This document shows, piece after piece, positions 37,572-41,000 of a DNA stretch of 64,000 nucleotides. The DNA lies in contig NZ_CP134398.1 in NCBI RefSeq assembly GCF_002968335.2, forward strand, positions 62,001 to 126,000, written 5' to 3'. Below the pieces are notes generated by a model. It made no database searches, was not told the DNA's origin, and saw only the letters and a list, made by a program, of their open reading frames with translations. The position numbers and the translations under genes were made by a program. Numbering within the stretch: the stretch's first letter is position 1; every line of letters starts with the position of its first letter. The stretch comes from Mycobacterium sp. ITM-2016-00316. GTDB lineage: Bacteria > Actinomycetota > Actinomycetes > Mycobacteriales > Mycobacteriaceae.

Positions 37572-38189
37572 GTGAGGGACGCACCGCTGGACGGGCTGCT
37601 GGAACGAGCGGGCGGAATCCGCGGGCTCATCTACTCCGCGCTGCCGGTCACCACCTACGCGGTGACGGCCGCCGCGCTGGGACGCATCCCCGCGATCATC
37701 GCGGCGCTGACCGTCGCCGCGCTGGTGCTGGCCTGGCAGCTGGCGCACCGGGAATCGTTGCGGCCGGCATTGTGGGGATTCGCCGGTGTCGCGTTGTGCG
37801 CCGGACTGGCGTTGGTCACCGGGCAGGCCAAGGACTTCTATCTCCCCGGTATCGGGATCGCCCTGGTGACGGCCGTCCTGCTCACCGGATCGATCCTGAT
37901 CCGGCGCCCGCTGGTCGGTGTCGTGTGGGCCTGGGTGACCGGGCGCGACGGCGTGTGGCGGCGTGCCCCGCGGGTGCGGCTGGCCTTCGACGTCGTCACC
38001 GCGGTGATGGCCGCGGTGTCCTGGTCGCGCTTCCTGGTGCAGTACCACCTTTACGACAGTGACCAGGCCGAACTGCTGGCGGTGGCGCGGCTGGCCATGG
38101 GCTGGCCGCTGTTCCTGGTCACCACCACGCTGATGGTGCTGGCGGTCCGGTACGCCATCCGTGTGCTGCCGCGCCCGGCCGCCGGATAA
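37572..38189 (+). CDS. DUF3159 family membrane protein
   Basis: A 205-residue membrane protein with five or six helices and the DUF3159-like opening LLERAGGIRGLIYSALPVTTYAVTAA and later FYLPGIGIALVTAVLLTGSILIRRPLVGVVWAW. GTG 37572 lies 23 bp after the zinc-ribbon gene stop, so the three unknown genes 36665-38189 probably form an operon. It ends 45 bp before the promoter of the sulfonate importer leader. Confidence 0.8.
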   Translation: MRDAPLDGLLERAGGIRGLIYSALPVTTYAVTAAALGRIPAIIAALTVAALVLAWQLAHRESLRPALWGFAGVALCAGLALVTGQAKDFYLPGIGIALVTAVLLTGSILIRRPLVGVVWAWVTGRDGVWRRAPRVRLAFDVVTAVMAAVSWSRFLVQYHLYDSDQAELLAVARLAMGWPLFLVTTTLMVLAVRYAIRVLPRPAAG

Positions 38190-38234
38190 AACTCACCCCG
38201 ATCCCAGATCTTCTCGCCGCATCGCCCGCGCGGT

Positions 38235-38240
38235 TCTAAT
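38235..38240 (+). promoter_or_regulatory. -10 box of the leaderless sulfonate operon transcript
   Basis: TCTAAT differs from the TATAAT consensus at one base and ends 6 nt before the GTG at 38247. This spacing places the transcription start at the GTG itself, so the transcript would begin directly with the small cysteine ORF. Confidence 0.55.
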
Positions 38241-38246
38241 ACGCGG

Positions 38247-38288
38247 GTGACGATGTCGCTGACTGCCGCCCCTTGCTGTTGCCGCTGA
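38247..38288 (+). CDS. Leaderless polycysteine uORF (attenuator leader peptide)
   Basis: A 13-codon open frame, GTG-start peptide MTMSLTAAPCCCR, with three consecutive cysteine codons TGC-TGT-TGC (38274-38282) right before CGC and TGA. The -10 box lies 6 nt before the GTG, so translation is probably leaderless; ATG 38253 in frame is an alternative start. Leaderless polycysteine ORFs upstream of sulfur-assimilation operons are a described mycobacterial attenuator class, in which ribosome stalling at Cys codons during cysteine shortage switches on the downstream genes. The downstream genes here encode a sulfonate/taurine importer, which fits this class. Confidence 0.85.
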   Translation: MTMSLTAAPCCCR

Positions 38289-38337
38289 GGCCCCTCGCCC
38301 CAGCGCTTGTCTTCCAACAGTTCTCACAGCAAGAGAG
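38272..38337 (+). promoter_or_regulatory. Cysteine attenuator: Cys-codon tract pairs beside the permease ribosome site
   Basis: CTTGCTGT (38272-38279), which spans the cysteine codons, is exactly complementary to ACAGCAAG (38326-38333), which abuts and partly covers the AAGAGAG ribosome site (38331-38337) of the permease gene. When translation of the leader runs freely the duplex could mask the ribosome site; a ribosome stalled on the Cys codons would keep the tract single-stranded and open it. Confidence 0.6.
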
Positions 38338-38347
38338 TCGGCCAACA

Positions 38348-39211
38348 GTGTCTGTCTTCGTGGATATCGTGCCCGGCGAGCCGAAAGTCGACTCGTCCCG
38401 TACGGTCCCGCCGTCTCAGCGGTGGCGCGGCGTGCTCACCAGAACCGCCTTGCCGCTGCTCTCGGTGCTGGTGTTCTTCGCCGTCTGGCAAACCGTTGCG
38501 GCCCTGGGTATTTGGAACCAGACCTTCGTGCCCTACCCCGGCACGGTGTGGCGCGCGTTCGTCGATGTCTCCACCACCCAGGACGGCACCCGCGGTTACG
38601 CCGGCTACCTGCTCTACGAGCACCTCTACATGACGCTGCGCCGGGTGCTCGCCGGCGTCGCGATCGGTGTGGTGCTCGGTGTCCTACTCGGCCTGTTGAT
38701 GGGGTCGGTCGGGTGGCTGCGCAGCGTGCTGGAGCCGTGGCTGACGTTCCTGCGCGCGCTGCCACCGCTGGCCTACTTTTTCCTGCTGGTGATCTGGCTC
38801 GGCATCGACGAGGCCCCGAAGATCACCTTGCTGGCGCTGGCCGCACTGCCGCCCGCCGCGGTGGCCACCACGGCTGCCGTCGTCGCCGCGCCCGTGGGTC
38901 TGCAAGAAGCGGCCCGAGCGCTGGGCGCCACCCGGATCCAGGTGATCCGCGATGTGGTGGTGCCCTCGGCGCTGCCGGAGACCTTCACCGGGATCCGGCT
39001 GGCGGTCGGCATGGCCTACTCGTCGGTGGTCGCCGCGGAACTGTTCAACGGCATCCCCGGCATCGGCGGATTGGTCAAGGACGCCAGCAATTACAACAAC
39101 ACCCCGGTCGTGCTGGTCGGCATTTTCGCCATCGGTTTCTCGGGCCTGATCATCGACGGTCTACTTCGCGCCGCCGAACGGCGCGCCGTCCCCTGGAGAG
39201 GAAAAATCTAG
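38348..39211 (+). CDS. Sulfonate/taurine ABC permease (SsuC/TauC-like)
   Basis: A 287-residue permease with about six membrane helices and the BPD inner-membrane EAA loop (EAARALGATRIQVIRDVVVPSALPETFTGI). GTG 38348 is the start of choice: AAGAGAG lies 10 nt upstream, and longer readings of the frame overlap the cysteine leader. It adjoins a TauA-like binding lipoprotein gene and a SsuB/TauB-like ATPase gene, forming a three-gene importer. The cysteine leader upstream links it to sulfur supply, and alkanesulfonate or taurine is the likely cargo. Confidence 0.88.
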   Translation: MSVFVDIVPGEPKVDSSRTVPPSQRWRGVLTRTALPLLSVLVFFAVWQTVAALGIWNQTFVPYPGTVWRAFVDVSTTQDGTRGYAGYLLYEHLYMTLRRVLAGVAIGVVLGVLLGLLMGSVGWLRSVLEPWLTFLRALPPLAYFFLLVIWLGIDEAPKITLLALAALPPAAVATTAAVVAAPVGLQEAARALGATRIQVIRDVVVPSALPETFTGIRLAVGMAYSSVVAAELFNGIPGIGGLVKDASNYNNTPVVLVGIFAIGFSGLIIDGLLRAAERRAVPWRGKI

Positions 39212-40237
39212 ATGAGGTTCACATCCCTACTGGCAGTGGCCGTCAGCGCTCTCGCGCTGGCCGGATGCGCGGTGGACAACTCCGGAAGCGACGACAGCAA
39301 GGAGACCGTCCGCATCGGCTACCAGTCCTTCCCCAGCGGTGACCTGATCGTCAAGAACAACAGGTGGCTCGAAGAGGCACTGCCCGAGTTCAACATCAAG
39401 TGGATCAAATTCGACTCCGGCGCCGACGTCAACACCGCGTTCATCGCCAAGGAACTCGATTTCGGAGCGCTGGGTTCCAGTCCGGTGGCGCGCGGACTGT
39501 CGGCCCCGCTGAACATCCCCTACAAGGTGGCGTTCGTCCTCGACGTCGCCGGTGACAACGAGGCCCTGGTGGTGCGCAACGAGTCGGGTGTCAACACCAT
39601 CCCCGAGCTGAAGGGCAAGCGGATCGCGACGCCGTTCGCGTCCACGGCCCACTACAGTCTGCTCGCCGCTCTCGCGCAGAATGGCTTGTCCGCCAATGAT
39701 GTTCAACTGATCGATCTGCAGCCCCAGGCCATCCTGGCGGCGTGGGATCGCGGTGACATCGACGCCGCCTACACCTGGCTGCCCACCCTGGACGATCTGC
39801 GCAAGTCCGGCAAGGACCTGATCACCAGCCGCCAGCTGGCCGCCGACGGCAAGCCGACCCTGGATCTCGGCGCGGTGCGTACCGAGTTCGCCGACGCGCA
39901 CCCCGAGGTCGTCGACATCTGGCGCCGGCAGCAAGCCCGCGCGCTCGACGTCATCGCCGGCGACCCGGAGGCCGCCGCCAAGGCGATCGCCGCCGAGGTC
40001 GGTCTGACGCCGGAAGAGCTTGCCGGACAGCTCAAGCAGGGCGTCTACCTGACACCGGCGCAGGTGGCCTCCCCGGAGTGGCTGGGTTCCGACGGTGCAC
40101 CGGGCAACATCGCGGCCAACCTGCAGAGCGCCTCGGAGTTCCTCGCCGAGCAGAAGCAGATCCCGGAGGCCGCGCCGCTGCAGACGTTCCAGGACGCCAT
40201 CTACACCAAGGGTCTTCCCGGTGCCCTCGACCAGTGA
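39212..40237 (+). CDS. Sulfonate/taurine-binding lipoprotein (TauA/SsuA-like)
   Basis: A 341-residue type II periplasmic binding protein with a lipobox LAGC and C19 as the lipidated residue. Landmarks are ETVRIGYQSFPSGDLIVKNNRWLEEALP and the TauA-type stretch FGALGSSPVARGLSAPLNIPYKV. It would deliver a sulfonate to the permease encoded just upstream. The ATG directly follows the permease stop. The protein ends inside the ATPase gene start (17-bp overlap). Confidence 0.88.
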   Translation: MRFTSLLAVAVSALALAGCAVDNSGSDDSKETVRIGYQSFPSGDLIVKNNRWLEEALPEFNIKWIKFDSGADVNTAFIAKELDFGALGSSPVARGLSAPLNIPYKVAFVLDVAGDNEALVVRNESGVNTIPELKGKRIATPFASTAHYSLLAALAQNGLSANDVQLIDLQPQAILAAWDRGDIDAAYTWLPTLDDLRKSGKDLITSRQLAADGKPTLDLGAVRTEFADAHPEVVDIWRRQQARALDVIAGDPEAAAKAIAAEVGLTPEELAGQLKQGVYLTPAQVASPEWLGSDGAPGNIAANLQSASEFLAEQKQIPEAAPLQTFQDAIYTKGLPGALDQ

Positions 40238-41000
40238 CATCGCCACCCGCGGCGGGTTGCGGATCGCGAACGTCGCGCACCGCTACGGTGACGTCACCGC
40301 CCTGGGCCCGGTCGATCTCGATGTCGAGCCGGGGGCGTTCCTGGTGCTGGTCGGCGCCTCGGGCTGCGGGAAGAGCACGCTGCTGCGGCTGATCGCCGGC
40401 TTCGAGGAACCCACCGCGGGCGAGGTGCGCGTCGAAGGCGCCTCACCCACACCGGGTGTCACCTCGGGCGTGGTGTTCCAGCAGCCGCGGCTGTTCCCGT
40501 GGCGCACCGTCGGTGGCAACGTCGACCTGGCGCTCAAGTACGCGAAGGTGCCCCGCGAGCGGCGCGCCGAGCGGCGCGATCAGCTGCTGGAGCGGGTCGG
40601 GTTGGAGGGCACCGGTGACCGCAAGATCTGGGAGATCAGCGGCGGGCAGCAGCAGCGCGTGGCGATCGCGCGGGCACTCGCGGCCGAGACCCCGCTGTTC
40701 CTGCTCGACGAACCGTTCGCCGCGCTGGACGCGCTGACCCGCGAACGGCTGCAGGACGACGTGCGTCAGGTCAGCGCCGAGTCGGGGCGCACCACGGTGT
40801 TCGTCACGCACAGCGCCGACGAGGCGGCCTTCCTGGGATCGCGGATCGTGGTCCTGACCCGGCGCCCCGGCACGGTTGCGCTGGACCTGCCCTCGGAGCT
40901 GCCACGCGCCGGGGTGGGGGCCGATGAGTTGCGGCGCTCCCCGGAGTTCCTGAGGCTGCGCAATGAGGTCAGCGATGCGGTGAAGACGGCCGCCGCGTAG
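40221..41000 (+). CDS. Sulfonate/taurine ABC ATPase (SsuB/TauB-like)
   Basis: A 259-residue ABC ATPase: Walker A GASGCGKST near residue 50, Q-loop VVFQQPRLFPW, signature ISGGQQQRVAIARAL, Walker B LFLLDEPFAALD and H-loop VFVTHSADEAAFL. GTG 40221 was chosen from the position of the lipoprotein stop at 40237, which it precedes, and the N-terminal length of the family. An intrinsic terminator follows at 41020. Together the three genes and the leader form a cysteine-linked import unit. Confidence 0.9.
   Translation: MPSTSDIATRGGLRIANVAHRYGDVTALGPVDLDVEPGAFLVLVGASGCGKSTLLRLIAGFEEPTAGEVRVEGASPTPGVTSGVVFQQPRLFPWRTVGGNVDLALKYAKVPRERRAERRDQLLERVGLEGTGDRKIWEISGGQQQRVAIARALAAETPLFLLDEPFAALDALTRERLQDDVRQVSAESGRTTVFVTHSADEAAFLGSRIVVLTRRPGTVALDLPSELPRAGVGADELRRSPEFLRLRNEVSDAVKTAAA

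Follow-up and report, generated by a model that had tools for sequence, protein, structure and literature searches.

A conserved cysteine-codon leader ORF as a candidate translational attenuator of a TauABC-type importer operon in mycobacteria

The importer operon and its leader

We analysed a window of 64,000 nucleotides (G000:C1:62001-126000) from a single-contig genome of 5.99 Mb. In this window a short upstream frame (uORF) is followed by the genes for a permease, a binding protein and an ATPase, in that order (Table 1). The permease start was taken as the GTG at 38348, with an AGAGAG at 38332-38337 ten bases upstream. No clear ATG start is seen for the ATPase gene. Its frame continues without a stop in the upstream direction, across the end of the binding-protein gene, and translation must begin either at a TTG near 40257 or at a start codon that overlaps the preceding gene. 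An Rfam scan at the gathering score (riboswitches and T-boxes included) and a tRNA scan returned no matches in the window.

Table 1. Coordinates of the leader and operon features within the window.
Feature	Coordinates	Strand	Remarks
Upstream block GATCCCAGATCTTC	38200..38213	+	position of a conserved element of the TGANCNNAG or GATNNCAG type, some 47 nt upstream of the start
-10-like hexamer TCTAAT	38235..38240	+	6 nt before uORF start
uORF MTMSLTAAPCCCR*	38247..38288	+	GTG start; second in-frame ATG at 38253
5' arm to permease start codon (predicted)	38257..38261	+	partner 38346-38350; pair probabilities 0.98-1.0
5' arm to SD end and SD-start spacer (predicted)	38265..38269	+	partner 38337-38342; pair probabilities 0.71-1.0
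5' arm over Pro/Cys codons (predicted)	38272..38279	+	partner 38326-38333; pair probabilities 0.85-1.0
Three consecutive Cys codons TGC TGT TGC	38274..38282	+	direct reading of the sequence
Permease ribosome site	38326..38350	+	SD AGAGAG 38332-38337, GTG 38348-38350; predicted pairing partner of the uORF
Permease	38348..39211	+	PF00528; nearest NCBIfam model TauC
Substrate-binding protein, TauA-like	39212..40237	+	profile and alignment similarity
ABC ATPase, TauB-like	40236..41000	+	frame open from 40095

A sequence-only reading of this DNA had pointed to a 13-codon frame that ends in three Cys codons and Arg and begins 6 nt after a -10 box. This can be read directly from the letters (GTG ACG ATG TCG CTG ACT GCC GCC CCT TGC TGT TGC CGC TGA), which give 13 codons and a stop at 38286-38288. 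The 8-base complement described in the same reading is also there, 38272-38279 (CTTGCTGT) being the exact reverse complement of 38326-38333 (ACAGCAAG). Its designation as the Cys-codon stretch needs a small correction: the segment is mostly Cys, but 38272-38273 belong to the preceding Pro codon and the Cys codons occupy 38274-38282.

Taken singly, such features are weak. The 8-nt match alone is not rare: when the uORF was dinucleotide-shuffled 5000 times, complements of at least 8 nt to 38289-38350 arose in 418 cases, and the Cys segment set against the ribosome-site region alone gave them in 200 of 5000. The Cys-Cys-Cys-X-stop pattern occurs 20 times in the organism's own genome versus 18 times for the reversed pattern, and Cys-Cys-Cys-stop occurs 25 times versus 14. 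Together the two patterns, which would miss leaders with two Cys codons, gave 45 matches with three places common to both. Three remain once a -10-like hexamer and a short frame are required, namely the present locus, L125 (the leader of a sulfate-binding-protein gene) and L140; the last was set aside by eye because its Cys run lies inside an 84-codon open frame. The case for the feature rests on conservation and on the combination of features rather than on any one of them.

The -10 box had been called near-consensus, which is right for the window, where it matches TATAAT at 5 of 6 positions, but does not carry over to the relatives described below, where it is mostly poor. Among 66 leaders with a uORF, the best hexamer matched TATAAT at 3 of 6 positions in 47, while 8 leaders reached 4 or 5 matches and 11 had fewer than 3; a hexamer ending in AAT at the 6-nt spacing was found in 39 of the 66. 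A scan of 38050-38500 with a sigma-70 pattern that includes the -35 element found no promoter. In 43 of these 66 leaders the upstream block stands 46-49 nt ahead of the RTG; 2 have it at other distances, and in 21 it was not matched by pattern. It is perhaps a -35 region or the site of a sulfur regulator.

Substrate of the importer

The importer had been described as a TauA/SsuC/SsuB type for alkanesulfonate or taurine. Sequence similarity agrees with a sulfonate type, and the description can be narrowed. The nearest NCBIfam models are those for TauABC, all with scores below the equivalog cut-offs (220.3 against 304.25, 175.9 against 342 and 219.1 against 357 bits), and for this reason we call the importer TauABC-type and not TauABC. 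For the binding protein the highest scores come from taurine models, and its alignment to E. coli TauA has an E value of 2e-47. Taurine-contacting residues are kept: aligned by eye at an offset of 21, the equivalents of TauA Ser60, Gly61, Gly79, Glu106, Thr132, Trp176 and Asp205 are identical, and Gln30 falls outside the aligned stretch. The portion of PMC6906117 that treats these residues reports mutation of TauA at Gln30, Glu106, Thr132 and Asp205, and the absence of Asp205 from SsuA. On residues and scores we prefer the TauA type to a general alkanesulfonate (Ssu) importer, and from sequence the operon probably serves taurine uptake.

Elsewhere in the genome there are three matches to the TauD family (PF02668), which make the release of sulfite from taurine possible. 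Members of this family also have other substrates. As for related systems, PMC8557817 lists two TauA/TauB pairs of Rhodococcus qingshengii IGTS8 among the proteins upregulated when dibenzothiophene replaces sulfate; orthology with the present genes is not implied.

Conservation of the uORF in relatives

Relatives were found by way of the permease and were mostly Mycolicibacterium and Mycobacterium, with some Mycobacteroides, Rhodococcus, Gordonia and Nocardia. The sample comprised L001 and 110 related loci, of which 80 were the best among 154 confirmed and 30 came from genomes of the genus. Leaders identical over the last 110 nt were collapsed and loci with less than 250 nt upstream were dropped, leaving 87 distinct leaders. 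A uORF was counted when an ORF of 8-30 codons with two adjacent Cys in its last eight residues lay within 250 nt before the permease, and 3176 equal stretches elsewhere in the same loci, on both strands, served as controls. Such a frame was found in 63 of the 87 leaders versus 80 of the 3176 controls, bearing in mind that the relatives are not independent. When a -10-like hexamer at the right spacing was also required, the counts became 54 of 87 and 18 of 3176.

The 24 leaders outside this count were inspected. Four hold a Cys run by eye (L027, L061, L064, L066), 13 are without a uORF, and another four have a uORF or a trace of one without adjacent Cys codons (L054, L063, L097, L108). Upstream of the permease in L065, L079 and L081, no such leader was seen. 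Loss of the pairing and of the Cys run in close relatives had been named in the sequence-only reading as a finding that would refute its proposal; the run is kept in most leaders, but those two groups of 13 and four are exceptions to it.

Two adjacent Cys codons are present in 63 of the 66 uORF leaders, and both codons are used across the 66 uORFs (TGC 88 times, TGT 70 times). The Cys run is kept while the remaining peptide varies, as in MNGTLPGCCCR, MSATLPADCCCR and MTTALSDDSCCR, and the Rhodococcus uORFs are longer, for example MPTTPLTRRIAVDLCRLGANCCCC. For a test of frame, the uORF start was chosen from the promoter motif without regard to Cys, and 50 of 52 TGYTGY runs were then in the frame of the chosen start. 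This test left aside 35 of the 87 leaders, 31 without the motif by pattern and 4 without a run. An earlier phase count (63, 0, 0) was discarded as biased by the way in which starts had been picked.

A wider genus sample gave a permease match in 75 of 198 genomes, and the script found a uORF with adjacent Cys in 47 of the 75 loci. Revision by eye showed one of these to be spurious (L160), recovered five real uORFs that had been missed (L165, L168, L179, L187, L189) and removed two distant homologues (L202, L203). In the revised sample, 51 of 73 loci have the uORF, 17 have the permease directly at the promoter and 5 are degenerate or unclear (L097, L108, L162, L195, L199). The two samples share genomes, and their counts take kin loci as they stand. 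Across Mycobacteriaceae and Rhodococcus, these sequences show that the Cys run is conserved in position and in frame.

Two leaders of the genus sample have unusual forms. In L162 the promoter and uORF start remain while the Cys codons and stop are gone, and the frame crosses the permease start out of frame. The uORF recovered by eye in L187 reads MPGTTVIDCRCC, in which an Arg interrupts the Cys run.

Predicted folding of the leader and the ribosome site

Pairing that borders the ribosome site of the permease had been claimed for this leader. It is indeed predicted, but it extends far beyond 8 nt and takes in the start codon (Table 1). The folding energy of 38247-38360 has a z of -2.7, and that of a slightly shorter piece -1.9. 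We used single-sequence ensembles, shuffles and arm swaps on 61 of the 66 uORF leaders (L061, L063, L064, L066 and L027 were left out). The z of the whole leader averaged -2.4, with 50 of the 61 below -1 and 2 above 0. The predicted pairing of the start codon to the uORF has a mean probability of 0.92 and exceeds 0.5 in 57 of the 61 leaders; for the SD stretch, 0.5 is exceeded in 47 of 61. At the letter level, an AGAAAG lies within 20 nt before the permease start in 41 of the 66 uORF leaders, and in 38 of 61 leaders the Cys-stop segment has an exact complement of at least 6 nt within the bases that precede the start, versus 10.7% of shuffles.

The predicted cost of opening the region from SD to start averaged 14.7 kcal/mol for the free RNA of the 61 leaders. 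A ribosome footprint placed on the first Cys codon brought the mean to 6.4 kcal/mol, and letter-shuffled uORFs gave 7.6 kcal/mol. The footprint lowers the cost by more than 2 kcal/mol in 58 of the 61 leaders and raises it by more than 2 in none. In the window the cost falls from 15.3 to 8.7 kcal/mol, and in four Rhodococcus leaders, for which the permease start was placed roughly, from 11.1-16.5 to 6.6-9.5 kcal/mol. The optimum for the footprint is broad, from about five codons before the first Cys codon to two after it. For the window, a ribosome placed at the stop codon is no less effective in opening the site than one at the first Cys codon (7.4 vs 8.7 kcal/mol). A switch built on this fold must therefore rest on dwell time.

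Compared with arm swaps, cognate duplexes of uORF and ribosome site had a mean predicted advantage of 3.7 kcal/mol, but the fraction of swaps that equalled or exceeded the cognate pair in strength had a median of 0.23 (0.30 for the window). Covariation is weak. For one pair flanking the start it was counted in 26 of 61 leaders against 19.4 in shuffled sets, with 25 of 2000 shuffles as high, and the neighbouring pair had no excess (49 vs 48.6 shuffled). When 42 of the 66 uORF leaders were aligned with MAFFT, RNAalifold returned no pairs, a result we attribute to codon-sized indels that misalign the arms. A scan of 38050-38500 for intrinsic terminators (hairpin and U run) found none. The attenuation proposed in the sequence-only reading is favoured by the conserved in-frame Cys run together with a predicted fold that would shut the ribosome site unless the uORF is occupied.

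Leaders without the uORF

Of the 13 leaders in which the uORF is absent, 12 have a block of type TGANCNNAG positioned 46-47 nt upstream of the permease GTG. The permease GTG of L053 follows directly on a -10 region (GGTACCAATACGCG) that resembles the one in the uORF leaders. The block thus stands at an equal distance from the uORF GTG and from the permease GTG of leaders without a uORF, which supports a leaderless start; on the plainest reading, each of the two GTGs would be the first codon of its transcript. In several relatives the block is GCTGAGCGCAGC, a short palindrome, and it is present in both leader types.

A permease tree of the 87 rows, with midpoint rooting only, holds 67 rows with a uORF (63 by the search criterion and four by eye). 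The state without the leader needs at least 5 changes on this tree. The uORF label needs 10, of which 8 are forced by strongly supported branches. Four Rhodococcus rows, which lie outside the mycobacteria, carry the uORF, and loss of the uORF is on this midpoint-rooted tree likelier than gain.

Proposed regulation and alternative explanations

We consider it quite likely that the leader is a cysteine-responsive, ribosome-mediated translational attenuator of the TauABC-type importer. Transcription would start at or next to the GTG at 38247, and the 13-codon uORF would be translated leaderless. With plentiful Cys-tRNA, ribosomes would pass quickly and leave the uORF, whose free RNA is predicted to fold onto the permease ribosome site, covering its start codon, the SD spacer and the bases immediately upstream of the SD, and the closed site would keep permease translation low. 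When cysteine is short, a ribosome would stall on the Cys codons, hold the 5' arm and free the ribosome site. Permease, binding protein and ATPase would then be made, and taurine or a close sulfonate would be imported as a sulfur source.

The uORF could instead act on transcription, with Rho ending the transcript before or within the permease gene if the uORF is untranslated or ribosomes leave at its stop. Rho was suggested for mycobacterial cys-operon leaders with Cys runs and no terminator hairpin in the part of Seliverstov et al. (PMC1262725) that discusses them, where the prediction is itself called weak, and the stretch 38050-38500 has no intrinsic terminator either. Rho, however, needs no fold of the kind predicted here, which shuts the ribosome site itself and pairs the start codon at a probability above 0.5 in 57 of 61 leaders. 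We regard this as an unlikely primary mechanism, and a translational block could still recruit Rho afterwards. A shade less probable again is that the uORF is a first cistron that keeps the downstream site open by coupling, with no sensing of cysteine and with the Cys letters kept for pairing. Part of the Cys segment does lie in the predicted helix, and a footprint at any of several codons opens the site. Pairing alone, however, would not call for Cys codons that fall in frame in 50 of 52 cases when the start is chosen without them, for the use of both TGC and TGT, or for two adjacent Cys codons in 63 of 66 leaders whose other residues vary.

It is very improbable that the uORF arose by chance as a short frame within an unremarkable 5' leader. 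Three-Cys runs ahead of a stop occur in this genome at close to the frequency of the reversed control, and an 8-nt complement appears in 4 to 8% of shuffles, both of which fit such a reading, but the position, the frame and the predicted fold are conserved over Mycobacteriaceae and Rhodococcus.

Beyond the single locus, we lean slightly towards a wider interpretation. Taurine import in mycobacteria and rhodococci would belong to a ribosome-controlled cysteine-starvation set, and the uORF would be doubly coded, as a Cys sensor and, over most of the frame, as antisense to the ribosome site of the next gene. Several lineages would have escaped by deletion of the leader, so that the same promoter starts the permease leaderless and the operon is unattenuated. 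If attenuation by the uORF is true, cysteine shortage would turn on organic-sulfur import without a protein regulator. The natural series of leaders present or absent at one promoter would be a direct test of the cost and gain of an attenuator, and a function is suggested for one family of unannotated mycobacterial mini-ORFs.

Comparison with known leader systems

In the trp and his attenuators of enterobacteria, the leader peptide contains codons for the sensed amino acid and ribosome stalling selects the RNA fold. The candidate attenuator described here is like them in its leader codons for the amino acid that would be sensed and in a fold that would be picked by stalling. Unlike them, it lacks a terminator in the scanned stretch, the ribosome site would be its target, and the uORF itself would be the sequestering strand.

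Closer in kind are the leader peptides with Cys runs that were predicted before mycobacterial cys operons, the text naming cys and cbs operons (Seliverstov et al., 2005, PMC1262725). As the relevant passages describe them, these leaders share with ours a short ORF, a Cys run near the stop, sulfur genes 3' of it and no terminator, and differ in their longer peptide. A second uORF of leaderless type with a Cys run, MRAATGNKSGHILALIAVGFSAVADVCCCR, lies in our genome at L125 (G000:C1 near 3846875, minus strand) before a gene for a sulfate-binding protein, and resembles the cys-operon leader type. A short ORF with adjacent Cys codons precedes this gene in 18 of 19 loci (the L204-L222 set), drawn from 17 of 25 genomes searched. 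In the L125 leader, the only one of its type that was folded, a stalled ribosome leaves the predicted opening cost at 10.5 kcal/mol, the same as in the free RNA. Since no opening is predicted there, its mechanism may differ from that of the taurine-importer leader.

Leaderless polycysteine short ORFs are reportedly a class of attenuators in mycobacteria, said to have been described by Canestrari and colleagues in 2020. Shell et al. (2015, PMC4633059) described leaderless Cys-rich uORFs upstream of cysA2 and further genes, and excerpts of PMC9031893 and PMC13236596 describe Cys-codon uORFs and cysteine-responsive translational attenuation of cysteine genes in M. smegmatis. As far as such passages characterize the class, the present leader agrees with it in a promoter-adjacent RTG, a short ORF and consecutive Cys codons next to the stop, and likewise in the sulfur operon that follows, the predicted base pairing between uORF and ribosome site, and the lack of a terminator in the scanned stretch. 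It differs in that its target is a TauABC-type importer, and in that several lineages appear to have lost the uORF, the permease taking its place at the promoter. Our literature search, made without the locus list of Canestrari et al. 2020, returned no report of a Cys-run leader before a taurine importer. By the features that can be read from sequence, the uORF would be a member of the leaderless polycysteine-ORF class, and what looks new here is that its target is of TauABC type, that the antisense arm is so long and that the uORF has apparently been lost more than once.
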